Assembly (NCBI GenBank): GCA_902785485.1
Contig: CACZZA010000009.1
Coordinates: 1 to 33,934 of the forward strand
Direction: 5' to 3'
Length of the DNA stretch: 33,934 nucleotides
From: an uncultured Ruminococcus sp.
GTDB taxonomy: Bacteria; Bacillota; Clostridia; Oscillospirales; CAG-272
Shown here piece by piece: positions 2,607-26,811 of the stretch. The translations under genes and the position numbers were made by a program. A model generated the notes under the pieces. That model made no database searches, was not told the origin of the DNA, and saw only the letters and a program-made list of their open reading frames with translations. Within the stretch, counting starts at the first letter, position 1. Every line of letters begins with the position of its first letter.

Positions 2607-2645
2607 AATAAAGTTCTCCTTATATTATAATTTGATTTTTGTTTT

Positions 2646-4007
2646 TCAGATCATGTGGAGCGCTTCGCGGATGACCTCGCTCACCGTCGGATGCGGGAAT
2701 ACGAGCTTGTGTACGTCCTCGACTCTCATTTCTTTCTCGACCATCATAGCCGCGCCGTAGATGATCTCAGACGCGTATGTGCCGAACATATGCACGCCGA
2801 GGATGGTGCGGTGCTTCTTGTCGATTATCAGCTTGACGATGCCGTCGCCGCCTTCGTTTTCGGCGATGTAGCGTCCGGAATAGTTCATCGTGAAGGATTC
2901 GACCTTCGCGTCAAGTCCTTTGGCCTTGACCGATTCCTGAGTCTCGCCGACCGACGCGACCTCGGGGTTGGTGTAAATTACGGACGGGATCGAGTTGTAG
3001 TTGACTCTGTCCTTCTTGCCGAGGATGTTGTTGATCGCAACTTCGCCCTCTCTGTACGCGGTGTGCGCGAGCATTATCTTGCCGTTGACGTCGCCTGCGG
3101 CGTAAACGCCGGGAACATTGGTCGCGCAGGTGTCGGAGGTGACGATGGCTCCGCGCTCGGTGATGACGCCGATGTTCTCAAGTCCGATGCCCGCGGAGTT
3201 TGCGCGGCGTCCGATGGAAACGAGAACGACGTCAGCCTTTGCGGACTGTTCCTTGCCGTCAAGCTCATAGTTCACGCAGTCCTTGCCGACCGACGTGACT
3301 TTCGCTTTGAGCAGGAATTCGATGCCTTTTTTCTTATAAGTTTTGAGAAGGAGAGCAGAGATCTCGCCGTCGGTGGGTCCGGCGATGTGGTCTAGCATTT
3401 CGATCACCCTGACGTGCGAGCCGATGGAGTTGAAATAGCTTGCCATTTCAAGTCCGATGACTCCGCCGCCGATGATGACGAGCTCCTTCGGCACTTCTTT
3501 CATATCGAGGATCTCGCGGTTGGTCTTCGCAAATCCCGCGGCGACCGCTTCGCGCAGACCGGGGATCGGAGGAACGGCGGCCTCGGAACCGGTGCATATA
3601 AGCAGGTTCTTAGCCTGATATTCTTTTCCGTCAGCCTCTACCGTGAAGCCATCGGCGGTCTTCTCTTTGATCACCGCCGCCGCCTTTACGACCTCGACGC
3701 CGTGCTTTTTCATTTTCGCTTCGACGCCCGAAACGAGCATCTTGACGACCTTGCCTTTGCGGTCGATGACCTTCGCGTGGTCGATCTTCGCGCCTTCAAA
3801 GGTCACACCGTAAGCGTCGGAGTGCTTCGCGTAGTCGTATATTTTTGCCGAATAGAGCAGAGTTTTGGTCGGGATGCAGCCTTCGTTGAGGCATACGCCG
3901 CCCATCGCTCTCTTTTCGATAACAAGCGTTTTGAGTCCGCTTTCGGAAGCTCTCTCCGCGGCGTTATAACCCGCGGGACCTCCGCCGATGATTATAAGAT
4001 CGTACAT
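2646..4007 (-). CDS. lpdA: Dihydrolipoyl dehydrogenase (E3)
   Basis: This FAD- and NAD-dependent disulfide oxidoreductase re-oxidises the dihydrolipoyl group of E2. The 453-residue length is normal for the family. Visible are the FAD-binding GGGPAG near residue 8, the redox disulfide CLNEGC (Cys39 and Cys44), a second nucleotide-binding motif IIGGGVIGLE, the second FAD site ending in AAGDV, and the C-terminal catalytic pair His439/Glu444 in HPTVSE. All key residues are present, so the enzyme should be active. It lies between E2 and E1 in the same operon. The start has an AAAGGAAG ribosome site. There is no extra N-terminal lipoyl domain, unlike some clostridial E3 proteins. Confidence 0.95.
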   Translation of the reverse strand: MYDLIIIGGGPAGYNAAERASESGLKTLVIEKRAMGGVCLNEGCIPTKTLLYSAKIYDYAKHSDAYGVTFEGAKIDHAKVIDRKGKVVKMLVSGVEAKMKKHGVEVVKAAAVIKEKTADGFTVEADGKEYQAKNLLICTGSEAAVPPIPGLREAVAAGFAKTNREILDMKEVPKELVIIGGGVIGLEMASYFNSIGSHVRVIEMLDHIAGPTDGEISALLLKTYKKKGIEFLLKAKVTSVGKDCVNYELDGKEQSAKADVVLVSIGRRANSAGIGLENIGVITERGAIVTSDTCATNVPGVYAAGDVNGKIMLAHTAYREGEVAINNILGKKDRVNYNSIPSVIYTNPEVASVGETQESVKAKGLDAKVESFTMNYSGRYIAENEGGDGIVKLIIDKKHRTILGVHMFGTYASEIIYGAAMMVEKEMRVEDVHKLVFPHPTVSEVIREALHMI

Positions 4008-4026
4008 TTATTACGCTTCCTTTCTC

Positions 4027-5352
4027 TTATTTCGCCATGAGAAGGTCGAAATTTTCGAGGTTTGCGCAGAGTTCTTTGAGGAACTTGGCTGCGGGCGCTC
4101 CGTCAAGCGCTCTGTGGTCGAACGTGAGGGACAGACCCATAGCGGAATAGAACACGTCCTGACCGTTGACCTGTTTTACGCGGCGGGTGATGGTGTCAAC
4201 GCCGAGGATGCAGGTCTGAGGCGGATTGATGACGGGAGTGAAGCTCTCGATGCCGAGCGAGCCGAGGTTGGTGACCGTGAAGGACGCGCCGGTGAGCAGG
4301 TCGGGATTGATCGAGCCCTTCTGAGCGTCCTTGATGATACCCTTAGCGGCGTTGGAAAGCTCGTTGAGACTCATCGTGTCGGCGTTGAACAGAGTGGGAA
4401 CGAGGAGTCCTCTCTCGGTGTCTACGGCGATACCGAGGTTAACGACGTTGAAGTATCTGATCTTGTCGCCGAGGAAGTGCGCGTTGCAGTCTCTGTGATT
4501 TTTAAGGGTCTTCGCGACCGCGAAGAGGACCATGTCGTTGAACGTGATGTTGCCGAGTCCGAGCGCTTCCGCGTTCGCTTTGAGCTTTGCTCTGTAAGCC
4601 ATGATCGCGGTGGCGTCGAAGGAGCTGTTGAGCGTGAGCTGAGCCATATTCGAGAGGCTCTCGTGCATCGACTTCGCGATGACCTTGCGTACGTTCGAGA
4701 TCTTGACGTCCTCGTACTGAGCGGCGGGCGCGGATGCGGGAGCTGCCGCCTGAGCCGGAGCGGTCTCCGCTTCTGCCGCGGGAGCCTTGCCGGTCTTGAT
4801 AAATTCGTCGAACTGTTCGGGAGTGAGGCGCTTGCCCGCGTCGAGCAGAGCGTTGACGTCGCGTTCGATTATTCTGCCGTTGGGTCCTGTCGGAGTAGCG
4901 GACGAGAGATCCGCGAAGGTCTTCTCTGCGAGGTGTTTCGCTCTCGGGGAGATCTTCATTTCGCCGGAGACGGTGCCGGTCGCTTCCGCCGCGGGAGCGG
5001 CTTCTTTCACTTCTTCTTTCTTTTCCTCCGCGGGAGCGGCTTCGGCTGCAGCGGGAGCCGCCGCGGGCGCTTCCTCCGCCTTCTTCTGAGGCATCAGAGC
5101 GGAAATATCCTCTCCGGGAGCGCCTATGATGCAGACGGGATCGAGGCAGGGGACGTCGTCTCCGTCCTCCGCGAATACTTCGAGAAGCGTGCCGGACACT
5201 GCCGCCATCTCTTCAAAGCTCGACTTGTCGGTCTCGTAGGAGAACAGTACGTCGCCCTCGGATACCGCGTCTCCTTTTTTCTTCTTCCATTCGGTAATGA
5301 CGCAGCTCTCGACGCTCTGGCCCTGCCGCGGCATTATTACTAACGTTGCCAT
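4027..5352 (-). CDS. Dihydrolipoamide acyltransferase (E2)
   Basis: This is the core acyltransferase of the 2-oxoacid dehydrogenase complex, moving the acyl group from lipoate to CoA. Domains in order: one lipoyl domain (1-78; the lipoylated lysine is Lys43 in ETDKSSFE), a long Ala/Glu/Pro-rich linker (about 88-130), a small E1/E3-binding domain (about 133-172, beginning ISPRAKHLAE), a second Ala-rich linker, and the catalytic domain to residue 441. The active-site HxxxDG is at His413-Asp417. CGGAGG lies just before the ATG. The gene starts 34 bases after the regulator gene and ends 19 bases before E3, so it belongs to the same transcript. The alanine-rich linkers are typical mobile arms, not a sign of damage. 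No lipoate ligase gene is in the window. Confidence 0.93.
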   Translation of the reverse strand: MATLVIMPRQGQSVESCVITEWKKKKGDAVSEGDVLFSYETDKSSFEEMAAVSGTLLEVFAEDGDDVPCLDPVCIIGAPGEDISALMPQKKAEEAPAAAPAAAEAAPAEEKKEEVKEAAPAAEATGTVSGEMKISPRAKHLAEKTFADLSSATPTGPNGRIIERDVNALLDAGKRLTPEQFDEFIKTGKAPAAEAETAPAQAAAPASAPAAQYEDVKISNVRKVIAKSMHESLSNMAQLTLNSSFDATAIMAYRAKLKANAEALGLGNITFNDMVLFAVAKTLKNHRDCNAHFLGDKIRYFNVVNLGIAVDTERGLLVPTLFNADTMSLNELSNAAKGIIKDAQKGSINPDLLTGASFTVTNLGSLGIESFTPVINPPQTCILGVDTITRRVKQVNGQDVFYSAMGLSLTFDHRALDGAPAAKFLKELCANLENFDLLMAK

Positions 5353-8220: not shown

Positions 8221-11200
8221 TTGGACATTCGTTTAACAGTCATCTTGGCATTTGCGGTGTTCTTCGCCGCGGCGACTTCGGCGGTATTTATAAGTAAAAA
8301 ATACCGTTCCGTTTTTATCATCACGGCACTTGCGCTCATTCCCGCCGCGTTCGTAGCCCAATTTGCGGCAACAAAAGCGCTCGAAGAACCGCAGACCGAA
8401 AAAGAGACCCAAACGCAAGCTCTCGGAAGGGACGAGCTGCTCGAGTACGTCAACGCGCTGATCTCAGGCGGAATGACGAATTCGGCTTCGGACGTACTCA
8501 AAGAATATTCGTCAACTTATCCGATAGACGAAGACTATCTCACCGCGGAATCGCGCATAAAAGCGCTTGAAGGAAATTACGGAGCGGCTGTCAGGCTTAT
8601 GCCGGAAAGAGCGGTGGGACTTGAAATATTCGGGATCGGAAGCAAGACTGAGACGGATGCGATAGAAAACGCGGAAAAAGGCGTCATCACCCACGAGGAG
8701 ATGTCCCGTGTAATTATGGACGCCGCCGGAAAACTCGGTGTTTCCCAAAAAATCAAAGAAATAGCGCAGATCTACGCCGAGTCCGATAACCTCTACGCAT
8801 TCGATCCGAACGCAAAAGAGGAAGCTTCTTCTCTCGCTGACCTTATGCGCGACAAACTTGAAAACGGGAAGGTCAGACTTCCGAAAGCGTTGGAACGCGG
8901 ATACCTCAAACTGCTCGTAGCGGCGGGGAAATACGAAGAAATAGCCGAACGCACGATCAACACGAGCGATCCCATGACTCTCATAGTTCTCGGCGAACTG
9001 ACGAGACTCGACAAAATAAAAAGCTCCGACGTGAACGGTATCAAGGAACTTAATGAAAAAAACGAGCAGAGCAAAACTGTTTCCGAATGGCTCAGGAAAG
9101 CAGCCGAGGAACTCGACTCCGGAGAACGCGAGCTTGTCATCGAAGCGGCGGAAGAGCTTGACGATTCGATCGTAAACGGAAAGAAAGCGTATAAGATCTG
9201 GGTACGCACGTCGCTCGTCGAGTCAGCCGAAGACGAAGGCAACACCGAAGCCGCGAAGACGTATCTTGAACTTGCGAAAATGGATCTTACGGACGGAAAT
9301 GAAGACTCCGCGTCCGAAAACATAAAAAAAGCCCTGCAAAAAGCTTCCGACAGCGAGGACAGACGTTTCGCCGGTCCCGCTGTCGAGATAAACGAGGTCA
9401 TCAAAGACAAGAGCGATACCGAGGGTCTCAAAAAGATCGACGACTACGTAGATAAGCTGATCGACAATATGGGCTCGAAGGAAATGAACTCCGGATACGG
9501 GCGCGACGGCGGAACGAGCGACCTCAAAGAAGCCGTGATAAATGAAATAACCGAAGAAAATCCCCCCGAAGATTTCAAACAGTACGTTTCTTCCGAGGTA
9601 AGTCAAAGCACCGCGTCGATCTCCGTCTCATCGGTTGATCCGTCCGAGTTTGAGAAAATCACCGCGGTCATAGCGGTCGACGAGTCGATAGCCACGACAC
9701 CGGAAGAATTCAAGAACAAGGTGGAACTCATAGACTGCGGAAACGTTATCAAAAACTTCACCGTCGAAAAGCTCGGAGACGCCAAAGTCAACATCGTACT
9801 CGTTTGCGATAACTCGGGAAGTATGGCGGGCGACAAAATAACCAACCTCAAGAGCGCGGTGTCGACGTTCGCCGATACTCTGACAGACGACGTTTCGCTC
9901 GGTATCGTTTCGTTCGATTCCGGCGTGTTAGGATCAGCGAGCGCGCCCATCGGATCGTCTGCGTCTGCTTTGAAAAGCGCTATAAACGCTATGGGAGCGT
10001 ACGGAGGCACCAATATCTATTCCGGCGTTTCGTCCGCCATCGGTCAGCTTAAAGCATCCGAAGATCTCAACGTCATAATCGTAATGTCAGACGGGCAGGA
10101 CGCGCGCCCGAGCGCCGATATTATGAACTCGATCAAAAGCGAGTGCAACGCCAGAAATACTGTCATCTACACCATGGGACTCGGTTACGACGTAGACTCA
10201 TCCGTACTCAGCGCCTACTCCTCGTCGGGAGGCGGCAGCTATACTTTCGTTTCCGACTCAGGCTCACTTCTTTCTTTCTATAACTATTTGTACCAGACGA
10301 GCCGCAACCGTTTCAGAGTAAAATACGAAGCTCTTGACACCATCAAAACAAGCAGATCTCTCAGAGCGTCGTACAAAGACGACCCCAAGGTCTACGGAAC
10401 GCGCGAATACTACGTTCCCGGTTATTCAGAGATAAGCGAAAACGATCTCGGAGAGGAATACGACGTCGTGATAGACGGTGTTTCTCTGAACGGTCTTGAT
10501 ACAAGACTGCTGTTCCGTTCGTCCGTACCTCAAACCATAAGATTGCTCGGAGACAAGCTTGATAAGTCGCTTGACGTCAGCGTTACGATAACGTCGGGCG
10601 TGTCTTACGAACTCGCGTGCGCCTACGAAAGCGAGACGTCCCGTATCCTCACCGTTCCCGCAAACGCCGCTTGCGGCGAATATGACGTTATAGTCAATAT
10701 AGGCGATAAACGCGCAGTGTTCGACTCGGGACTCGTGATAGCGAGCAAGGATCTTGAAACGATACGCTTCGGACAATACGTATTCGAGTCGTCTCAGATC
10801 AGCGATCTCGGAGACGAAGTCGTAATGAACGGATACACCCGCATGAACGGCTGGCTCGAGTTCTCCGGACCCGTCAAACTGAGCGGAGACAGAAACACCT
10901 CCAACTCACTGCGTATGAACTCCGGTCAAGCGACGGTAAGCTTCGACCGCAACGATCCGGACGTCAAAGGAGTCGCCTCCACAATGGCTGAACACGGACG
11001 TATGATCGGGATCAACGGGATCTACGATCTCAACATATACCGCAACGAAGGGATCCCCTCCTCAGCCGATACGTTCAGAGCAGATCCTTCCGTTCTCTAC
11101 GCGGGGCTCGTTGTACAAAATCTGTTCGAACTAAACACACCGGGTCTTTCACTTTACCCCGACCGTATGGAAATAGGGTTCAACGACTTCACAACGGCGT

Positions 11201-12198
11201 TTCCGTTCCAGGACAAACTGCTTAAATCCGGCGGACTCGACAAGATATTCGCATTCAAATCAACTCATCAGGAAACTATAATAGTATCTCAAAAAGCGGT
11301 CGACTGCAAATTCGAGCTGGGAGTCGAGTCAAGCGACAAAGACGCGTACAGAGAGGCTAAATTCGGCAATATGCGTCTGCTCGTCAACCTCGAAGAATTC
11401 AAGCTCAGTATCGACACGAAGGAGGACAACTACTCCGTAAAGACGGCGGTCAATATTGCCATGCTGGGCAAAGGGATCGGATTGGAGCTTGCCTGGAAAG
11501 CAGGCGGACTCGACAAAGCGAAGATCTACGCCGATTTTGACGTAGACACAGTGATCTGCGGAGTCCCTACGACTTTCTCCGACTTTTCTCTCGGAGCGTC
11601 CGGGATCGCCGGAGACGGGCTAAAGTCGCTGACGCTCGAAGGAGGATGCAAGATCTCGTTCGTAAAAGTATCGGACAAATGGCCCGGACTTGAAAAATAC
11701 CTCGGCGACGTTTCCGTGCTTTCTCTTGACGACGTCGAACTCAAATTCAGATTCTATACTCCTTACATAAGTCTTTCGGCAAAGCTCAAGTTCATCGAAA
11801 AGGTCGAGATAGGCCACGCTTCGATAATGCTCGGGTCCGACCTGCCGTATACAAACGATCTTATCGGTATAACCGGCGGCGGAGTCAACGGGATCGTCGG
11901 TGAAGTGGGGACCGGAATAAAATACCAGTCTCCGGGAGAAAACGTAGACATAGACATCGGTGCAAGCGGCGAGCTGGCGTTGACAAACGTCGTTTGCGGA
12001 TTCACGGTCAAAGGCAATATCAAGGTCATTGTCAAGTGGTGGCTGCTTGAAGCCATTCACGTGGACGCCTCGGGACGGGCGTTCTTCGGCTTCTTCGTCA
12101 AAAACAACGGTCACGGAACGTTTGCTTTGTACTATCAGTTGAACGGCAACAAGATAGAAAAGCCGCTCGATTGGGATACCGGGAGGGTAATAGCGTGA
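8221..12198 (+). CDS. Large membrane-anchored von Willebrand factor A domain protein
   Basis: I do not recognise this 1325-residue protein as a named family. Residues 4-45 form two hydrophobic segments, which likely anchor it in the membrane. Residues about 60-460 are charged and helical, TPR-like in feel but without clear repeats. A VWA domain follows (about 520-690) with a complete metal-ion-dependent adhesion site: Asp530-x-Ser532-x-Ser534, Thr597 in GGTNIYSG, and Asp624 in SDGQD. The remaining 600 residues are rich in beta strands, with alternating polar and hydrophobic residues and many Gly/Asp turns, and carry no catalytic motif I can see. It starts at TTG 8221 with AAGGAG 8 bases upstream. 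Its stop overlaps the start of the next gene, so the two proteins are probably made in step and may bind each other. Confidence 0.8.
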   Translation: MDIRLTVILAFAVFFAAATSAVFISKKYRSVFIITALALIPAAFVAQFAATKALEEPQTEKETQTQALGRDELLEYVNALISGGMTNSASDVLKEYSSTYPIDEDYLTAESRIKALEGNYGAAVRLMPERAVGLEIFGIGSKTETDAIENAEKGVITHEEMSRVIMDAAGKLGVSQKIKEIAQIYAESDNLYAFDPNAKEEASSLADLMRDKLENGKVRLPKALERGYLKLLVAAGKYEEIAERTINTSDPMTLIVLGELTRLDKIKSSDVNGIKELNEKNEQSKTVSEWLRKAAEELDSGERELVIEAAEELDDSIVNGKKAYKIWVRTSLVESAEDEGNTEAAKTYLELAKMDLTDGNEDSASENIKKALQKASDSEDRRFAGPAVEINEVIKDKSDTEGLKKIDDYVDKLIDNMGSKEMNSGYGRDGGTSDLKEAVINEITEENPPEDFKQYVSSEVSQSTASISVSSVDPSEFEKITAVIAVDESIATTPEEFKNKVELIDCGNVIKNFTVEKLGDAKVNIVLVCDNSGSMAGDKITNLKSAVSTFADTLTDDVSLGIVSFDSGVLGSASAPIGSSASALKSAINAMGAYGGTNIYSGVSSAIGQLKASEDLNVIIVMSDGQDARPSADIMNSIKSECNARNTVIYTMGLGYDVDSSVLSAYSSSGGGSYTFVSDSGSLLSFYNYLYQTSRNRFRVKYEALDTIKTSRSLRASYKDDPKVYGTREYYVPGYSEISENDLGEEYDVVIDGVSLNGLDTRLLFRSSVPQTIRLLGDKLDKSLDVSVTITSGVSYELACAYESETSRILTVPANAACGEYDVIVNIGDKRAVFDSGLVIASKDLETIRFGQYVFESSQISDLGDEVVMNGYTRMNGWLEFSGPVKLSGDRNTSNSLRMNSGQATVSFDRNDPDVKGVASTMAEHGRMIGINGIYDLNIYRNEGIPSSADTFRADPSVLYAGLVVQNLFELNTPGLSLYPDRMEIGFNDFTTAFPFQDKLLKSGGLDKIFAFKSTHQETIIVSQKAVDCKFELGVESSDKDAYREAKFGNMRLLVNLEEFKLSIDTKEDNYSVKTAVNIAMLGKGIGLELAWKAGGLDKAKIYADFDVDTVICGVPTTFSDFSLGASGIAGDGLKSLTLEGGCKISFVKVSDKWPGLEKYLGDVSVLSLDDVELKFRFYTPYISLSAKLKFIEKVEIGHASIMLGSDLPYTNDLIGITGGGVNGIVGEVGTGIKYQSPGENVDIDIGASGELALTNVVCGFTVKGNIKVIVKWWLLEAIHVDASGRAFFGFFVKNNGHGTFALYYQLNGNKIEKPLDWDTGRVIA

Positions 12199-14300
12199 AA
12201 AACAGACTATTGAAAATGATCGCGTCGCTTTCGGCCGTTATACTGATCGCCGTATTTGCGGCGACCGGCGTATCTGCCGAAAAGAGCAAGACCTTCACAC
12301 TCGAAAAAGACGCGGACATCGAGATCTCCGTCGTATATAAGGACACGGCTCCGAGCGTAAAAGTTACGGGACCGGACAAAACGTATTCCGAGGACGGAGA
12401 CTTCGACATCGTTTCGCACGGAGACGGGGCGGAGAACTTCGTTATCAAAAACGCAAAAAGCGGTAATTGGTCGGTCGAACTGTCTTCCGAAGGCGAGATA
12501 ACGGTCCTTTACTATACGGGAAACGTCAACGTCGACTATTTTACGGTCGAACCCGAGTCGGATACGCGCGCAAACGTAAAAATGAAAGTCGACTACGAAA
12601 AGGAGGCCTCGTATGACGTTTCGGTCTTCGCAGTGTCAGACGGAAACAACACCGGTTTGCCCGAGACCCGCGTTTTGCGCGAGACATACGGATACACCAA
12701 CCGTGATGAGTCGTTTTCGGTAGGTTTGTCGGACCTTCCGGACGGAAAATGGACGTTTTACGCGGAGATAGAACTGAAGCTTCTTGACGGAGTTTCCACG
12801 TCTCTGACCGCGTACTCAGATACCGAATACACCGCGACAGGACGCACCGAAAAAGGCGACGAAAGCAAGATCGTCTATTCGGTCGATCTTACAAACGAAA
12901 CTCTGAACGTCGATTGGTCGGGCATCGACGACAGATCGAACAATATCCTCGTTACGGTCGTCGACGGTAACGGAGAGATGCTTTGCTACGACAAATACGG
13001 TCACGGCGTCACTTCAGCGCAGATCGTCACCGACCCGTCGTCAAGCGACACGCTCGAAGTCAGAGTGATCCCGCTCGACTACCGTGAAAACTACACCAAA
13101 TTTTACAGGAAAACCGTTCCGCTCACACCTTCCGAAAGCGTTTCGGTAGATACTCCCGAATCGACTTCTTCGGGGATGGCGCAGATCAGCTACAAATTCG
13201 GGAACGAATACACGCCGGTCAGGATCGAAATAAACGGAAAAAGCTCGACCTATCAGTTTAAGGGCGAAAACGTGATGTCGGTCCGTCTTAACGAAAACGA
13301 CAACAACGACATCAGGATCACATACAGATCCGCGGACGGCGTCGAATACTCCGTTTCAAAGACCGTATCCGTACACTCGTTCCCGCCTGCTCTGAACCTT
13401 TTCGGGATCGAGGACGGAAGCGTAACGTATTCCGAAAGTATTACGGTAAACGGATTGACAGACGGAGCTTATGTTGAACTCAACGGTCAAAAGATCGACG
13501 TTTCCGACGACGGGACCTTCAAAACCGAAGTAAAGCTCGAAATAGGAGAAAACGTTCTTGAATTCGTATCCGACAACGGATACGGAGCAAAAACCGTCCG
13601 CACCCTGAAAATCATACGCAGAAGCGAAAACGGAGAGACGGCCGCCACAAAGGAAACAAAATCCGGGATAGAACGTTTCATTCCTCTGATCGCGGGGGCG
13701 GGATCGGCTCTGTTGGCAACAGCAGCCCTTGCGGTAACGCTGATCTTCGCAAAAAAGAAAAAAGCGGGAGTCGGAACGACGATCCTGCTCGTACTTACCG
13801 TACTTTCACTCTTTTCCGCGCTGATCCTCGGCGCGGGAAGCGGATATTCTTTCTACCGTTCCGCAAAAGAAAAAGCCTCCATTTCCGGAAACGAACTTGT
13901 CGGAGCGGTCGGCAAGGGTGATTTCAAAGGCATTTACGGCACCATTTCGCTGAAAAACGAGTGGAGCGACAGAGGTCTGCTCCTCGCTCTCATCGGCGGC
14001 GGATGTCTGCTTCTCGGAGCGCTCCTCATCGTCATCACGATCATTATACGCCGTCATCGCAAAAACAAAAAGAGCGGAGGTATTTCCGCTCCGGCATATA
14101 ACGGTCCCGCAGATCAATTCCCGGGACAGCAGCAGAACCCGCAATATCCCACGCAGCAGAACCCGCAATATCCCACGCAACAGAGCCCGCAATATCCCAT
14201 GCAGCAAGGTCAGCAATATCCCGCACAGCAAAGTCAGCAATATTCCAACCCGCAGCCGCATCAGGGACGGGATCCTGCAGACCCGAGACAAAACAGCTGA
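12195..14300 (+). CDS. Secreted/membrane partner protein with Gln-Pro-Tyr repeat tail
   Basis: The chosen start is the GTG at 12195. GGGAGG lies 8 bases before it, a clean signal peptide follows (about 1-29, ending GVSAEKS), and GTGA overlaps the stop of the VWA gene. A longer reading from TTG 12171 would put eight residues before the signal and lacks a ribosome site. The 701 residues hold a signal peptide, a beta-rich extracellular part with several Ig-like units (the last, about 395-485, resembles the glucodextranase-B-type fold with VELNGQ and DGTFKTEV), three hydrophobic helices between about 495 and 620, and a C-terminal tail of eight-residue Gln/Pro/Tyr repeats. No enzyme motif is visible. 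Function unknown; the coupling suggests a complex with the VWA protein. Confidence 0.75.
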   Translation: MKNRLLKMIASLSAVILIAVFAATGVSAEKSKTFTLEKDADIEISVVYKDTAPSVKVTGPDKTYSEDGDFDIVSHGDGAENFVIKNAKSGNWSVELSSEGEITVLYYTGNVNVDYFTVEPESDTRANVKMKVDYEKEASYDVSVFAVSDGNNTGLPETRVLRETYGYTNRDESFSVGLSDLPDGKWTFYAEIELKLLDGVSTSLTAYSDTEYTATGRTEKGDESKIVYSVDLTNETLNVDWSGIDDRSNNILVTVVDGNGEMLCYDKYGHGVTSAQIVTDPSSSDTLEVRVIPLDYRENYTKFYRKTVPLTPSESVSVDTPESTSSGMAQISYKFGNEYTPVRIEINGKSSTYQFKGENVMSVRLNENDNNDIRITYRSADGVEYSVSKTVSVHSFPPALNLFGIEDGSVTYSESITVNGLTDGAYVELNGQKIDVSDDGTFKTEVKLEIGENVLEFVSDNGYGAKTVRTLKIIRRSENGETAATKETKSGIERFIPLIAGAGSALLATAALAVTLIFAKKKKAGVGTTILLVLTVLSLFSALILGAGSGYSFYRSAKEKASISGNELVGAVGKGDFKGIYGTISLKNEWSDRGLLLALIGGGCLLLGALLIVITIIIRRHRKNKKSGGISAPAYNGPADQFPGQQQNPQYPTQQNPQYPTQQSPQYPMQQGQQYPAQQSQQYSNPQPHQGRDPADPRQNS
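14130..14249 (+). repeat. Five tandem 24-bp coding repeats
   Basis: Units begin at 14130, 14154, 14178, 14202 and 14226, each encoding a version of QQNPQYPT. The first two are identical at the DNA level and the last two have drifted (QQGQQYPA and QQSQQYSN). They form the disordered cytoplasmic or cell-wall tail of the partner protein. Copy number may vary between strains. Confidence 0.85.
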
Positions 14301-20135: not shown

Positions 20136-20894
20136 ATGGACTTCTACGCAAAAAGCGATAAGGGCCTGCGCAGAGAGGAAAACCAGGACGTTTTCATCAC
20201 CTGCGAGCCTATCGAAGGAATGCTCCTGCTGATCGTATGCGACGGTATGGGCGGAGCGAACGGAGGTAAAGTCGCGAGCGAGCTGTGCGGCGAGTCGTTC
20301 GCAAAAACGATCGACGAGCGGATCAACGGTTCGGAAAATGAAAGACAGATACGCTTCGGTTTCGACAAAAGCGCGATCCCCGAGATATTGCGCGAGGGAG
20401 TGAACGCCGCCAACACCGCCGTTCACAAAAAAGCCACGCGGAGCAAAAAGCTCGCCGGTATGGGGACGACGCTCGTTTCCGCGCTCATTTACGGCAACAC
20501 TTTGTACGGTGTCAACGTGGGAGATTCGCGGCTATATTCGGTCAAAGACGGACGTCTGCTGCAGCTCTCGCACGACCATTCGTACGTTCAGACGCTCGTC
20601 GACCTCGGGACTCTGACTCCCGAGCAGGCGAGAAAGAACCCGCACAAAAATATCATAACCAAAGCCATAGGCATAGGTAAGGAAGTCGAGCCGGACATCT
20701 TTTCAAAAGAGCTGAACGGCGAAGAATACCTGCTCCTTTGCTCCGACGGTCTTTCCGGCTACGTTGAGGAGGACCGCATCCTCGACGTCATCCTGGAAAA
20801 GAAAGAGCCGAGCGAGATCTGCTCGTCTCTCATCGACGAAGCGAACGCCAACGGCGGGGGCGACAACATCACTCTCTGCGTCATAAGGCTTTAA
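20136..20894 (+). CDS. prpC: PP2C-family Ser/Thr phosphatase (PrpC/IreP/Stp)
   Basis: This cytoplasmic, manganese-dependent phosphatase reverses the PASTA kinase. The 252 residues carry the standard motifs: REENQDVF (15-20), the metal-binding Asp36-Gly37 in CDGMGGANGG, GVNVGDSRLY, LLLCSDGLSGYV, and GGDNITL near the end. CGGAGG precedes the ATG. It sits between rlmN and the kinase, 33 bases before the latter, so kinase and phosphatase are made from one transcript. Its expected substrates here are the kinase itself and IreB at 16756. Confidence 0.95.
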   Translation: MDFYAKSDKGLRREENQDVFITCEPIEGMLLLIVCDGMGGANGGKVASELCGESFAKTIDERINGSENERQIRFGFDKSAIPEILREGVNAANTAVHKKATRSKKLAGMGTTLVSALIYGNTLYGVNVGDSRLYSVKDGRLLQLSHDHSYVQTLVDLGTLTPEQARKNPHKNIITKAIGIGKEVEPDIFSKELNGEEYLLLCSDGLSGYVEEDRILDVILEKKEPSEICSSLIDEANANGGGDNITLCVIRL

Positions 20895-20927
20895 CGAATA
20901 TTTTGTGTTTACGAGGAAAGAATAACA

Positions 20928-22970
20928 ATGGATCTGTTTGAAAGATACGTCGGAAAAGTCATCGACGAAAGATATAAGATCACAAGAATAATAGGATCGG
21001 GCGGAATGGCGGTAGTGTTCGAGGCGTACGACCTCGTCAACAACCGTCCCGTGGCGCTCAAATTACTGAAAGACGACATCGCCAAGGACCAGCGCGCCGT
21101 CAAACGGTTCATCAACGAGTCTAAGGCGATCTCCATGCTCAGCCATCCGAATATCGTCAAGATCTACGCCGTCTCGGTCAAAGAAAACCTTAAATATCTC
21201 GTGATGGAACTCGTTCCCGGCATCACGCTCAAAAACTATATAAACAAAAAAGGCGCCCTTCCGTACAGGGAGGCGCTGCTCTATACGCGACAGATACTCA
21301 AAGCGCTCGAGCACGCTCACTCCAAGGGCATAGTCCACCGCGATATAAAGCCTCATAACATAATGCTGCTCAAAAACGGGCTTATCAAGGTCACCGATTT
21401 CGGTATCGCAAAGCTCCCCGACGCGGAGACCCTCTCGTCTCCGGATACGGCGATCGGTACCGTTTACTACATCAGTCCCGAGCAGGCGGAAGGCAAGGAG
21501 ATAGACAGACGGAGCGACATTTATTCGCTCGGTATAGTAATGTACGAGATGATGACGGGAGTTCTCCCGTTCCGCTCGAACAACCTCGCCGACATCGCTC
21601 TCAAACAAATAAACGCCTCTCCGCGCCCGCCGCGCGAATTCACTCCGTCGATCCCCGTCGGAGCCGAACAGATCATTCTCACGGCTATGGAAAAACGTCC
21701 CGAAAGACGTTTTCAGAGCGCAAAACAAATGTTGGATTGCGTATCCAAGCTGCTTGAAGATCCGAATACCGTATTCAACCAGCGGAAGATCTCGGATCAC
21801 GACAAGACCGAAAGAGGAGCTTACGCAGAAAGCGACGCTATGAAGAAGAAAAAGAAAAAACGTTCCGGCGACTCGGGAAACGGCTCGATGCTCCCCGTCA
21901 TAATCGGGATCGCGGCGGCGGTACTGGTCATCGCCGTCATAGCGATATTTTTCATCATCAAAAACGTGTTCTCCGACGATCCCGATATAAGGCACGAGAT
22001 CGTAGTCGAGAACTACGTCTCGCAGATGTTTACGGACGAATTGCGCGACAAACTCGAGAATGAAGGATATTCCGTCGAAATAGAGGAGATATATTCTGAC
22101 GAATACCCCGTCAATACCATCGTAGACCAAAACCCCAAGGAAGGGCAGAAACGTATAGTCATCGACGGGCAGCAAAGGGTCTCGCTCAAGCTGAAAATAA
22201 GTTCAGGGAAACAGTCCTATACCATGCCCGATCTCACGTCTCAGAATATCAGGAACGCCGAACTCAAGCTGAAGAATTTCTCGGTAAACGTGGAGATCGT
22301 TTACGAAGCGTCGGAGACCGTTGAAGAAAACTTCGTCATCAGCACGGAACCCGCTCCCGGCGACAGCATAACGGCGGATCAGACGGTCTATCTTCACGTC
22401 AGCACCGGCCCCACGGTCAAAATGACGACCGTACCGAACTTCATGGGCAAGACGCTGAATGAAGCCACGGCGATGATAAAAGAATACTCCCTCCTGCTCG
22501 GCGAAGTCAAATACGATCCCTCCGACACCGAAAAAGACAAAATAATCAAACAAAGCCTCAAAGTGGGAGAAAAAGTCCCTGCAAGCACAAAGGTCGACCT
22601 CGTTATCAGCACGGGACCGAAGGAATCCGAGACCGAACAAGCTACGACTGTTCCGCTTGAAAACTACGCCGGCAAGAACTACGGCGAAGTCATTTCATCT
22701 CTCGATAAGCTCGGGATAAAATACAGGTCTGAATACGCGGATAACGCAAACATTCCTCAGGGACACGTCATCCGCACCGAGCCGGCGGCGGGAACTTCCG
22801 TCAAGATCGGAGACGAGATAGTACTGATAGTCAGCAACGGCCCCTCCGCGCCTGAAACGGACGCCCCCGTGACCAGACCCCCGGAGCCTCCGGCGACCGA
22901 ACCTCCGGCTACCGAGCCTCCCGCTACCGAGCCTCCGGCGACCGAACCTCCTGCTACGGCCGCTCCGTAA
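20928..22970 (+). CDS. prkC: PASTA-domain Ser/Thr protein kinase (PrkC/IreK/Stk1)
   Basis: This transmembrane kinase senses peptidoglycan fragments or lipid II and controls wall synthesis. Of 680 residues, 1-285 form the kinase domain (glycine loop GSGGMA at 23-28, Lys45, HRDIKPHN with Asp139, DFG 157-159, activation loop with IGTVYYISPEQ). A basic juxtamembrane stretch KKKKKK precedes one membrane helix (about 322-347). Four PASTA repeats follow outside (about 355-428, 429-498, 499-563, 568-638). The tail is a low-complexity run of PPATE units, possibly a wall-spanning spacer or glycosylation site. GAGGAAAG lies before the ATG. It is last in the operon and is followed by a terminator. Confidence 0.96.
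   Translation: MDLFERYVGKVIDERYKITRIIGSGGMAVVFEAYDLVNNRPVALKLLKDDIAKDQRAVKRFINESKAISMLSHPNIVKIYAVSVKENLKYLVMELVPGITLKNYINKKGALPYREALLYTRQILKALEHAHSKGIVHRDIKPHNIMLLKNGLIKVTDFGIAKLPDAETLSSPDTAIGTVYYISPEQAEGKEIDRRSDIYSLGIVMYEMMTGVLPFRSNNLADIALKQINASPRPPREFTPSIPVGAEQIILTAMEKRPERRFQSAKQMLDCVSKLLEDPNTVFNQRKISDHDKTERGAYAESDAMKKKKKKRSGDSGNGSMLPVIIGIAAAVLVIAVIAIFFIIKNVFSDDPDIRHEIVVENYVSQMFTDELRDKLENEGYSVEIEEIYSDEYPVNTIVDQNPKEGQKRIVIDGQQRVSLKLKISSGKQSYTMPDLTSQNIRNAELKLKNFSVNVEIVYEASETVEENFVISTEPAPGDSITADQTVYLHVSTGPTVKMTTVPNFMGKTLNEATAMIKEYSLLLGEVKYDPSDTEKDKIIKQSLKVGEKVPASTKVDLVISTGPKESETEQATTVPLENYAGKNYGEVISSLDKLGIKYRSEYADNANIPQGHVIRTEPAAGTSVKIGDEIVLIVSNGPSAPETDAPVTRPPEPPATEPPATEPPATEPPATEPPATAAP
22887..22958 (+). 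repeat. Tandem 15-bp repeats coding PPATE
   Basis: About five units of a CCTCCGGCGACCGAA-like sequence encode Pro-Pro-Ala-Thr-Glu at the C terminus of the kinase. The third positions alternate among units, so the repeat has aged. It is coding and not a mobile element. Confidence 0.8.
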
Positions 22971-23128: not shown

Positions 23129-24955
23129 TTATTCAACGGTAACGGATTTCGCAAGATTTTTGGGTTTGTCGATGTCACATCCGCGGTAAAGAGCGGTATA
23201 GTAACCCAACATCTGCATCGGGATAACGGTAAGGCTCGGAGCAAAGATCTCGTCCGTTTCGGGGATGATGATAAGTTCGGACGCATCTTTACAAATATCG
23301 GCGTATTTTTCAAACGTGATAACGACGTCGTACGCGCCGCGCGCTTTCGTTTCGCTCACGTTGGAAAGGGTCTTGGCGGCGACTCCGCTCTGCGTTATCG
23401 AGGCGATGACCGGCGTTCCCTCTTCGATCAGCGAAAGAGTCCCGTGCTTCAGTTCTCCGGCGGCGTAGCACTGGCTGTTGATATAGCTGACCTCTTTGAG
23501 TTTCAGCGAGCCTTCCGCGGCGGACGCTCCGTCGAGCAGACGTCCGATATAGAACGCGGACTGCTCGTCTTTGATCCGTTTTGCGAGAGATACGATCTTG
23601 TTTCTCGTCATATTTATCGTCAAGGCGATCTTTTCCGGAAGCTCGAGCAACGCGTCGCATTTTGCCGCGTATTCTTCCGGTGAAAGTCCTTTGCGCAGAT
23701 ACGCGAATTTCAACGCGAGCGCGTAGAACGCCGCGAGCTGCGCCGAATACGCTTTTGTCGTCGCGACGGCGATCTCCCGCCCCGCGCGCGTCAGTATCGA
23801 GCTTTCGCTTTCTATCCAGAGCGACGACCCTTTGACGTTGACTATCGACAGGGTTTTTGCGTCCGTTTCTTTGACAAGGCGCAAGGCGGCAAGTGTGTCC
23901 GCCGTTTCGCCGGACTGGCTCACGAATATAACGAGCGTGTTTTTGTCGAGGATCGGAGACGCGTATCGGAACTCCGACGCAAGGACGACCGACGTGCGAA
24001 CGCGGCTGTATTTTTCAAACAGAAGCTGAGCGACGAGCCCGGTGTGGTACGCCGAGCCGCACGCCACGATATATATCTGATCCATTTTGTCGGAAATGAA
24101 AGTGTCGCCGACAACGCTTTCGACGTGGACCTCGCCTCCGTAAACAAGCTCGCGGAGAGTATTTCCGACAGCCTCCGGCTGCTGCATTATCTCGCTGAGC
24201 ATATAATGCTCGTAGCTGCCTTTTCCGACGTCTTTTTCGGAATCGCCGACTTCCGAGGGGCGCTTTTCAAGCCTGTTTCCGCTCACGTCGTAAAAATCAA
24301 CGCTTTTTCCGGAAAGGACTCCTATCTCGCCCTTGCCGGGGCGGTAGATCTCCTTCGCCCGGTCGGGAAGCGCAAGCACGTCGGACGCAAGATAAGACCC
24401 GTCCTCCGTTTGAGCGATCACAAGCGGACTGTGTAAAGACGACGCGTATATCTCGCCAGGACGGTCTGAAAACATCACGCCTATCGCGTACGAGCCTTCG
24501 AGGCGCGACGTCGCCTCGGCTACCGCCCTGACGGGGTCGTTTTCATAATAGAATGAGATCAGATGCGCTATCACCTCGGTATCGGTGTCCGACGCGAAAG
24601 TCTCGCCTTCCGGAAGTATTTTTTCTTTTATAAAAGCCGCGTTTTCGATGATCCCGTTGTGTACGACGGCGACGCGCCCGTCGGAGGAAAACAGCGGATG
24701 AGCGTTGCGCTCCTCGACTCCTCCGTGGGTCGCCCAACGGGTATGCGCGATGCCGCAGGTGTACTTTTCGTATCCCTTTTCGAGCGCCTTTTCGAGATTT
24801 GCGATCTTTCCCACGCGGCGGACCCTTTCAAGTCCGTTTTCGTCTGAAAACGCCGCTCCCGCGGAGTCATATCCGCGATATTCAAGTTTTTTAAGATATT
24901 TTATCAGGTCACCCGCGACGCTTGTGTCGCGGGTGATGCCGACTATTCCGCACAT
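23129..24955 (-). CDS. glmS: Glutamine-fructose-6-phosphate aminotransferase (isomerizing)
   Basis: This enzyme makes glucosamine-6-phosphate from fructose-6-phosphate and glutamine, the first committed step to UDP-GlcNAc and peptidoglycan. The 608 residues are normal. The N-terminal glutaminase domain starts MCGIVG with the nucleophile Cys2 and shows HTRWATHG and HNGIIEN. Two SIS sugar-isomerase domains follow (about 285-425 and 455-595; FVSQSGETADT is the sugar-phosphate loop, and the C terminus ends NLAKSVTVE as expected). GGAGG lies 8 bases before the ATG. It follows the glmM-like gene after 17 bases, so no room exists for a glmS ribozyme and the two are one transcript. Confidence 0.97.
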   Translation of the reverse strand: MCGIVGITRDTSVAGDLIKYLKKLEYRGYDSAGAAFSDENGLERVRRVGKIANLEKALEKGYEKYTCGIAHTRWATHGGVEERNAHPLFSSDGRVAVVHNGIIENAAFIKEKILPEGETFASDTDTEVIAHLISFYYENDPVRAVAEATSRLEGSYAIGVMFSDRPGEIYASSLHSPLVIAQTEDGSYLASDVLALPDRAKEIYRPGKGEIGVLSGKSVDFYDVSGNRLEKRPSEVGDSEKDVGKGSYEHYMLSEIMQQPEAVGNTLRELVYGGEVHVESVVGDTFISDKMDQIYIVACGSAYHTGLVAQLLFEKYSRVRTSVVLASEFRYASPILDKNTLVIFVSQSGETADTLAALRLVKETDAKTLSIVNVKGSSLWIESESSILTRAGREIAVATTKAYSAQLAAFYALALKFAYLRKGLSPEEYAAKCDALLELPEKIALTINMTRNKIVSLAKRIKDEQSAFYIGRLLDGASAAEGSLKLKEVSYINSQCYAAGELKHGTLSLIEEGTPVIASITQSGVAAKTLSNVSETKARGAYDVVITFEKYADICKDASELIIIPETDEIFAPSLTVIPMQMLGYYTALYRGCDIDKPKNLAKSVTVE

Positions 24956-24972: not shown

Positions 24973-26613
24973 TTATTTTTTTGAATAACCGAGTTCTTCG
25001 ATCTTATTTACGATCCTCGACGCTATGACGTCGCACCCCTTTTGAGTCTGAGCCTCGACCATCACGCGTACTACCGGCTCTGTGCCGCTCTCGCGCAGGA
25101 TGACACGTCCGTTTTTACCCAGAGCGGCGCGCTCTTTTTCGAGCAGAGATGTGACCTCCGGGTCGTTTGCCGCCGCGCTCTTGTTTTTTACAGTGACGTT
25201 CTTTACCGTCTGCGGGAACATTTTTACGGGCGAGGCAAGCTCGCTGAGCGGACGTTTCGAGCCGACCATACACTCGGTCAGCATGATGGCGGTCAGTATC
25301 CCGTCTCCGGTCGTCGCGTACTTGCGTATTATGGTATGACCCGTCTGCTCTCCGCCTATACTGCAATCGTTTTCGATCATCGCGTCGTGGACGAAGCGGT
25401 CTCCGACCGTCGTCTGTATGCATTTTATCCCCGCTTCATCGAGCGCCTTGAAGTACCCGAGATTGGACATGACCGTCGCAACGACGGTGTCGTTTTTGAG
25501 CAGTCCCTGTTTGCGAAGCATCTGCGCGATGACGTAGACCGTATGGTCGCCGTTCAGCTCGTTTCCGTTCTCGTCGACGGCGATACATCTGTCGGCGTCC
25601 CCGTCGAACGCGTATCCTGCGTTGCAGTGGTGTTCGCGGACGTATTTTTTGAGTCCGCTGATATGAGTCGAACCCGCTTTGTTGTTGATGTTGAGTCCGT
25701 CCGGCTCGTCGTTGATGACGTGTACGCGGGCGCCGAGCGCTCCGAATACCGATTTTGCTATCGCCCAGGACGCGCCGTTCGCGCAGTCGAGCGCGATATC
25801 GAGGTCCTTATACGAGTTCGCCGCGACGGAAATGAGAAATCCGACGTAGCGGTTGCGTCCCGCCGACCAGTCGATTATTTTTCCGATACGCTCGCGAAGA
25901 GCGAGAGGAAGATCGTCCTCGACTCCGAATTCCGACAGATCGCCGTCGATGTATTTTTCAACGAGCGAAAGAGTATAGTCGTCCATTTTTTCGCCCATAC
26001 CGTTGACAAGCTTGATCCCGTTGTCGGAATACGGGTTGTGCGACGCGGAGATCATGACTCCGCAGTCCATCGAATCCTGTCTCACAACGTACGATACGGA
26101 CGGGGTCGTCGTAACGTGGAGCATATACGCGTCCGCCCCCGAGGACGTAAGTCCCGCGGCGAGCGCGTACTCGAACATATAGCTCGAAAGACGTGTGTCC
26201 TTGCCGACCGCGACGCGCGTCTTGTGTCCCTCGTTGCGCCCGCAGAGCGCGGATGAATAGTACCATCCGAGAAATCTGCCTATCTTGAAAGCGTGGAGAG
26301 CGGTCAGAACTTCGTTCGCCTCTCCGCGAAAACCGTCAGTTCCGAAATATTTCAACCTTTCGTTGCAGGACTCCTTCGGGCGGAACAGCGGTTCTATCCC
26401 CGTTTGCGCGAGCGGAAGCTCGTCGCGAAGCAGTTCGTCGGTCGTGATCCCGAACAGATCCGCGAGCTTGAGTAATATCGCAAGATCGGGCGCGTTTTTG
26501 CCCGATTCCCATTTTGAAACGGACTGGCGCGAAACGTCGAGCCTTTCCGCCAGATTTTCCTGCGACATTTTTTGCAGACTGCGCAGGACCGCGATCTTTT
26601 CGCCTATCGTCAT
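24973..26613 (-). CDS. glmM: Phosphoglucosamine mutase with N-terminal XRE helix-turn-helix domain
   Basis: It converts glucosamine-6-phosphate to glucosamine-1-phosphate. From the ATG at 26613 it has 546 residues, about 90 more than a usual GlmM. Residues 1-64 are an XRE-type HTH (IGEKIAVLRSLQK, then LDVSRQSVSKWESGK and LLKLADLFGIT). A linker follows, and the mutase begins at about 88 with FGTDGFRG. The catalytic phosphoserine loop is intact (Ser191 in ISASHNP), as is the metal loop DGDADR, and the C-terminal phosphate loop RESGTEPVVRVM is present, so it should be active. The reading frame is open up to 26748, but that longer start lies upstream of the promoter at 26716-26744, so 26613 is preferred despite a weak ribosome site. 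It is co-transcribed with glmS. Confidence 0.93.
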   Translation of the reverse strand: MTIGEKIAVLRSLQKMSQENLAERLDVSRQSVSKWESGKNAPDLAILLKLADLFGITTDELLRDELPLAQTGIEPLFRPKESCNERLKYFGTDGFRGEANEVLTALHAFKIGRFLGWYYSSALCGRNEGHKTRVAVGKDTRLSSYMFEYALAAGLTSSGADAYMLHVTTTPSVSYVVRQDSMDCGVMISASHNPYSDNGIKLVNGMGEKMDDYTLSLVEKYIDGDLSEFGVEDDLPLALRERIGKIIDWSAGRNRYVGFLISVAANSYKDLDIALDCANGASWAIAKSVFGALGARVHVINDEPDGLNINNKAGSTHISGLKKYVREHHCNAGYAFDGDADRCIAVDENGNELNGDHTVYVIAQMLRKQGLLKNDTVVATVMSNLGYFKALDEAGIKCIQTTVGDRFVHDAMIENDCSIGGEQTGHTIIRKYATTGDGILTAIMLTECMVGSKRPLSELASPVKMFPQTVKNVTVKNKSAAANDPEVTSLLEKERAALGKNGRVILRESGTEPVVRVMVEAQTQKGCDVIASRIVNKIEELGYSKK

Positions 26614-26715: not shown

Positions 26716-26744
26716 ATTGTATTCGCGCTTGTACGTTACGTCAA
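26716..26744 (-). promoter_or_regulatory. Promoter of the glmM-glmS operon
   Basis: On the minus strand TTGACG (26739-26744) and TACAAT (26716-26721) are 17 bases apart, giving a leader of about 95 bases before the ATG at 26613. The -35 lies in CTTG...CAAG, a short inverted repeat. Confidence 0.7.
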
Positions 26745-26768
26745 GCAATTTTTGTTTGCAAATCGTGT

Positions 26769-26781
26769 CAACCTCAGGTTG
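26769..26781. promoter_or_regulatory. Palindrome upstream of the glmM promoter
   Basis: CAACCTCAGGTTG is a perfect 6-bp inverted repeat around a single base, 25 bases upstream of the -35 box. Size and symmetry suit an XRE-type dimer. Binding by the HTH domain of GlmM itself is a guess. Confidence 0.4.
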
Positions 26782-26811
26782 CGATATAAAATAATATCCC
26801 CCAAAAACGAC

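Follow-up and report, generated by a model that had tools for sequence, protein, structure and literature searches.

The window analysed here, a stretch of 33,934 nucleotides from an uncultured Ruminococcus sp., carries a gene that joins an XRE-type helix-turn-helix (HTH) domain to the phosphoglucosamine mutase GlmM (Table 1). The initial annotation had described an intact GlmM and a full XRE HTH within one open reading frame, and this description holds. The frame is continuous; Pfam HTH_3 matches residues 11-61 (58.1 bits, 8.7e-16, cut-off 23), all four PGM_PMM domains are matched in the remainder of the protein, and the NCBIfam glmM equivalog TIGR01455 covers residues 90-539 with 502.3 bits against a cut-off of 447.6. 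The catalytic elements named in that annotation, i.e., the Ser191 loop, DGDADR and the C-terminal phosphate loop, are likewise present: S191 is the serine of ISASHNP, DGDADR occupies residues 337-342 and RESGTEP residues 507-513, and S191, D337/D339/D341/R342 and S509/G510/T511 are invariant or nearly so in 73 fused homologues. With its equivalog match, an intact catalytic serine and intact metal (DGDxDR) and phosphate loops, the protein is by sequence a GlmM, and conversion of GlcN-6-P to GlcN-1-P is its predicted activity. It is also the sole GlmM of its genome, the next full-length match being just 26% identical.

Table 1. Features of the HTH-GlmM locus, in window coordinates
Feature	Position	Strand	Basis or remark
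HTH-GlmM fusion gene (P0001)	24973..26613	-	single uninterrupted ORF, 546 aa
XRE/HTH_3 DNA-binding domain, residues 1-65	26419..26613	-	Pfam HTH_3 8.7e-16; predicted five-helix domain
Recognition helix region VSRQSVSKWE, residues 27-36	26506..26535	-	conservation across 73 fused homologues
Flexible variable linker, residues 66-86	26356..26418	-	entropy; pLDDT <50 at 68-85
GlmM catalytic part, residues 87-546	24976..26355	-	TIGR01455 502 bits; conserved catalytic residues
O1, main putative operator GCAACCTGAGGTTGA	26768..26782	-	consensus GCAACYNNNRGTTGC, one mismatch; centre about -66
O2, degenerate second putative operator CAAACAAAAATTGCTTG (CAA-N7-TTG-STTG)	26742..26758	-	overlaps -35; profile of 54 fused promoters
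Sigma-70-type promoter TTGACG-17-TACAAT	26716..26744	-	10/12 consensus positions; geometry shared with relatives
glmS	23129..24955	-	17 nt downstream of fusion gene; MCGIVG start

The relatives in the PDB reflect the same composition: the mutase part is matched by GlmM of B. subtilis and B. anthracis, the N-terminus by small XRE repressors. An AlphaFold model was built from nine fused sequences (pTM 0.59, with unreliable relative placing of the domains). It predicts an HTH with helices at residues 3-13, 18-25, 29-36, 44-54 and 58-62, at a pLDDT of about 78-93 up to residue 60, then a disordered linker, and finally a GlmM fold that, among PDB entries, is most similar to 7ojr, 3pdk and 6gyz.

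As for the surroundings, a hairpin followed by a T run separates the fusion gene from a glycosyltransferase gene upstream. On the other side lies glmS, with which the gene had been said to be co-transcribed. Within the window this is plausible, since glmS starts only 17 nt downstream, but it does not extend to the fused homologues in general, most of which are not followed by glmS. The two genes adjoin in five genomes (G000, G063, G120, G163 and G307), i.e., in 5 of the 16 fused genomes with a GlmS match, and glmS linkage is thus ruled out as a defining context. Genes for a PP2C phosphatase and a PASTA-domain Ser/Thr kinase lie near the fusion on the opposite strand (20136-22970, +), and a kinase of this type is reported to phosphorylate GlmM in Streptococcus suis (cited in PMC12463286), so that phosphorylation of HTH-GlmM is conceivable. 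Farther away (8221-14300, +), a 1325-aa ORF with a VWA domain is followed by a second large ORF (12171-14300) with a glucodextranase B-type domain; both look like surface proteins.

How widespread is this architecture? The homologue search covered relatives, 395 genomes of the same family and 291 genomes of the class, with single-sequence or profile queries. It returned about 60 fused homologues within the family, and other families of the class contributed ten further ones, so that HTH-GlmM is present in more than 70 genomes of several Clostridia families. Because the fusion recurs in so many independent genomes, an assembly or frame artefact is ruled out. One fused GlmM (L042, RUG696) comes from a metagenome-assembled genome labelled Erysipelotrichaceae, which denotes either a transfer or a mislabelled bin. 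Over the 73 fused sequences the mean entropy is 1.21 bits in the HTH, 0.97 in the GlmM part and 2.83 in the linker; the conservation of the HTH thus comes close to that of the mutase, and only the linker varies freely. The initial annotation had pointed to the DNA-contacting residues as a check, and these are retained: R29, Q30, S33, W35 and E36 are 100% conserved and K34 99%, in a 73-sequence set that was picked partly by the recognition-helix pattern and leaves just three fused homologues outside (L152, L172 and L177).

A maximum-likelihood tree of 159 GlmM cores, computed with the HTH left out in a quick, unrooted search, places all fused proteins in one group of 71 (SH-aLRT 96). Seven members of this group had first been labelled plain. 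Two of them, L152 and L177, turned out to carry the fusion with a changed recognition helix (VSRKAVYSWE and LSLPVETIWDWE, respectively), and the other five (L181, L182, L188, L305 and L321) are members of the fused clade that have no HTH. L188 and L305 retain a short MT.EEK. start that resembles the first residues of the HTH. The simplest history, and a probable one, would be one fusion followed by a few losses.

The upstream regions of the fused genes have in common an inverted repeat, O1, with the consensus GCAACYNNNRGTTGC, i.e., GCAACY-NNN-RGTTGC. It was counted when found with at most two mismatches within 250 nt upstream of the gene. By this count O1 precedes 61 of the 63 fused genes with an intact recognition helix, 43 of them with a perfect copy; L130 and L153 are the two intact fused genes with no recognisable operator in that interval, and the match of L042, one of the 61, overlaps the Shine-Dalgarno (SD) sequence, at an unusual position only 26 nt from the ATG, and may be a chance hit. 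For ten held-out fused genes from other families, fetched once the motif had already been fixed, O1 was found in all ten, without mismatches, 98-123 nt before the ATG. Conversely, it precedes none of 148 plain glmM genes (0 of 142 plain, 0 of 5 plain inside the fused clade and 0 of 1 held-out plain). When the fused upstream regions were shuffled, a stricter form of the motif reached this level in 9 of 1260 cases. The half-site columns carry about 1.5-2 bits (the Y/R positions about 1), against 0.04-0.18 for the spacer. In the window O1 is the sole match with at most one mismatch; one such match per 34 kb arises in 15 of 100 shuffles, and the weight of the window site rests on its position and conservation, not on the match alone.

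Next to O1 lies a more degenerate element, O2. Counted from the start of O1, its TTG begins at 33-35 nt in most fused promoters, and the -10 is usually found at 60-63 nt; O2 overlaps the -35. The O1/O2 operator is new evidence, one that the initial annotation had not identified. That annotation had mentioned an upstream palindrome, and a conserved one does exist at 26782-26768 (-), namely, GCAACCTGAGGTTGA; the hairpin AGCGGAGATCCGCT near the ATG (26645-26632), in contrast, is not seen in the upstream sequences of relatives and was set aside as an operator. The proposed search for HTH_3-GlmM proteins, with a tree and their upstream palindromes, has thus yielded more than 70 genomes, one clade and a conserved O1.

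The distribution of the motif over whole genomes points in the same direction. Its exact form occurs at 63 places in 51 fused genomes, and 38 of these sites precede HTH-glmM. At least one exact site is present in 39 fused genomes; 38 of them have one in front of HTH-glmM, and in 21 this is the only exact site of the genome (all hand counts). The reversed pattern, taken as a control, gives 11 matches in the 51 genomes. Matches within coding sequences or terminator-like hairpins were regarded as background (e.g., L224-L226, L228, L231, L237, L238, L241, L242 and L245-L247). In genomes with no fusion, the compound O1+O2 pattern precedes stand-alone XRE genes with the recognition helix VSRQSVSKWE; the motif therefore appears to be the site of this HTH subtype. 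This also suggests that the fusion captured the start of an autoregulated XRE gene together with its promoter.

Does the operator follow the HTH when the latter is lost? Among the lost- or altered-HTH genes of the fused clade, 7 of 8 have no operator, and only L152 retains one, with one mismatch. Genome G315 holds two HTH-GlmM copies: the intact one (L132) retains its operator, and in the copy with a damaged recognition helix (L172, VPRQSLSEWE) the operator is lost or eroded. On the tree these comparisons reduce to 4-5 independent pairs. On average, HTH and operator change together in 3.6 of 4 of these (p = 0.125 by a sign test), and because the independent contrasts are so few, the co-loss is suggestive but not significant.

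Collectively, these data make it very probable that HTH-GlmM binds an O1/O2-type operator, and other accounts of the HTH and of the operator have to be weighed against this. The HTH could be an inert N-terminal appendage, or translation could begin after it, so that GlmM would be made unfused. The window does offer a TTG codon at 26358-26356, just before KYFGTDG, yet no SD stands at normal spacing from this codon, nor is the codon conserved. Only 6 of the 73 fused genes have a candidate internal start, one of these with an SD, and none is conserved. The start codon ahead of the HTH, on the other hand, is ATG in 72 of 73 fused genes, with an SD-like sequence in 70 of 73; GlmM is therefore made as a fusion, a start after the HTH is ruled out, and the start-site question raised by the initial annotation is answered in favour of the long protein. 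Taken together with the conserved DNA-contact residues, this leaves the idea of an inert or absent HTH with hardly any probability. A somewhat better, though still improbable, account is that a stand-alone XRE paralogue acts through the operator on the HTH-glmM promoter, and that the fused HTH was captured along with this promoter and is now idle or merely competes. The same operator does lie before stand-alone XREs, one of which is in the genome of the window: L193 (G000:C133, about 3627-3891), whose recognition helix is similar (VTRQAVSRWE) and whose start is preceded, at a distance of 73 nt, by an O1 with one mismatch. Cross-talk between L193 and the HTH-GlmM operator is possible. Against this account stand the 21 fused genomes whose only exact site is that before HTH-glmM, the conservation of the fused recognition helix at wide divergence, and the fact that the operator is likewise missing from most genes with a lost or degraded HTH.

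A further alternative accepts binding to O1/O2 and changes its sign: HTH-GlmM would activate its own promoter or act on it dually. The geometry gives this reading some ground, as the O1 centre lies at a median of -66 and O2 near -40, positions that class I and class II activators use, and a TTG-type -35 is seen, by the scoring used, in just about half of the fused promoters. However, most of these promoters have a -10 close to consensus, the -35 lies under O2, and a stand-alone XRE that occupies its own promoter is, as a rule, an autorepressor. Activation or dual action is accordingly unlikely, though less so than a paralogue operator, and, given binding, net repression is the likely outcome.

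The explanation preferred here, with a probability of roughly two in three, is that HTH-GlmM is a trigger enzyme, i.e., a working mutase that is also a DNA-binding autoregulator of its own promoter. Two features of such proteins can be read from the sequence: the enzyme and the DNA-binding domain are in one polypeptide, and comparative genomics places a putative operator at the gene's own promoter. A bifunctional enzyme-regulator of this kind had been proposed from the window alone, and the proposal is now strongly suggested by the operator linked to the HTH, by its absence from most genes whose HTH is lost or degraded and by the operators of stand-alone XREs. In mechanistic terms, the GlmM part would dimerise as GlmM does in B. 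subtilis and S. aureus, and so unite two flexibly tethered HTHs. These would occupy both half-sites of O1 and also O2, perhaps in a cooperative manner. Occupancy of O2 would cover the -35 and repress transcription of glmM, and in the window that of glmS too, so that the enzyme level would feed back on its own synthesis. The simplest outcome would be an autorepression that holds the enzyme level constant, possibly tuned by ligands of the mutase; the sequence speaks neither for nor against a ligand switch, and, given binding, the chances of such tuning appear even. In the initial annotation, a response to substrate or phosphorylation state would also set the rate of UDP-GlcNAc supply. The linker is variable and disordered, which argues against a rigid allosteric lever and would favour control via the dimer state, via domain opening or by concentration alone.

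Are there other targets? For most fused genomes HTH-glmM is the sole clear one. In fused genomes, 16 unlinked glmS genes have a readable start; three of these (in G268, G134 and G378) have the operator with promoter-like spacing, and 13 have none. In plain genomes the operator precedes 0 of 14. Two genomes of a single genus have an O1+O2 promoter before a gene for PPi-dependent phosphofructokinase (L227 in G162 and L233 in G333, about 2560-2710), and G060 has a comparable site close to the end of a contig (L232). In G268 a perfect O1, with no O2, precedes nagA (L230). The putative extra targets glmS and PPi-phosphofructokinase cluster around the fructose-6-phosphate/glucosamine-6-phosphate branch point. 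A separate case is a 542-aa fusion of HTH_3 with an ADP-ribosylglycohydrolase (L235 in G238, 2525-4249), with a perfect O1 and an O2 in front of it; this is possibly a second autoregulated HTH-enzyme, and G238 contains HTH-GlmM as well.

With regard to the supply of GlcN-6-P, the glmS ribozyme (RF00234) gave no match in the window or in fused genomes G000, G001, G019 and G051. This absence is uninformative as a mark of fused genomes, as most relatives have no ribozyme either (13 of 59 have RF00234). GlmS itself is detectable in 23 of 56 fused genomes versus 16 of 24 plain ones, although GlmM is kept, and the difference is suggestive but confounded by kinship; it suggests that fused genomes with no GlmS depend on amino-sugar salvage or on another source of GlcN-6-P. 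A broader and more tentative proposal, which we hold to be rather less probable than its opposite, is that HTH-GlmM acts as a transcription factor that senses hexosamine phosphates. How firmly it grips a species-variable GCAACYNNNRGTTGC regulon around the same branch point (glmM, glmS, PPi-phosphofructokinase and perhaps nagA) would then depend on the mutase state (substrate, 1,6-bisphosphate or phospho-serine), and in these Clostridia this control would replace the glmS ribozyme.

If the preferred reading is true, a broad range of uncultured gut Clostridia contain an enzyme of cell-wall precursor synthesis that serves as its own transcription factor, and GlmM joins the short list of trigger enzymes. 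Control of amino-sugar supply for the cell wall is known for a few models, and the known controls of GlcN-6-P supply are the glmS ribozyme, GlmR/YvcK and RapZ/GlmYZ. These act on the same part of the pathway as HTH-GlmM, but they are RNA-based or involve other proteins. The new system also offers a precise DNA site together with natural controls in which the HTH has been lost. In the open full-text literature, a scope outside which most subscription papers fall, neither a description of HTH-GlmM nor an XRE operator of the O1 form, or containing GGTTGC, was found.

Each half of the fusion has known counterparts. The stand-alone Clostridia XREs (L265, L266, L268, L283 and L287) share the HTH subtype VSRQSVSKWE and the O1+O2 promoter, but their C-terminal part is non-enzymatic, and membrane-like in several, where HTH-GlmM has a mutase. 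As for the enzyme, we know of no DNA-binding role for GlmM of B. subtilis and S. aureus. These proteins (PDB 7ojr and 6gyz; TIGR01455) are of the same family, with the same catalytic motifs and 43-44% identity, but they start directly at KYFGTDG, with no HTH. GlmM is a homodimer in B. subtilis (PMC8573169) and in S. aureus (PMC6368335), and it already moonlights there as an inhibitor of the c-di-AMP cyclase CdaA/DacA (PMC8573169, PMC6368335). The closest kind to HTH-GlmM are the trigger enzymes with an acquired DNA-binding domain, PutA, BirA and NadR (Commichau and Stulke 2008, as described in PMC8249747). Like them, HTH-GlmM combines in one chain a metabolic enzyme and a DNA-binding domain, with a site at the promoter of the gene itself or of its pathway. 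Ligand switching is for HTH-GlmM a proposal, and the enzyme differs: GlmM is not among the trigger enzymes named in PMC8249747, and here it would be the mutase of the cell-wall precursor route that takes on this second role.
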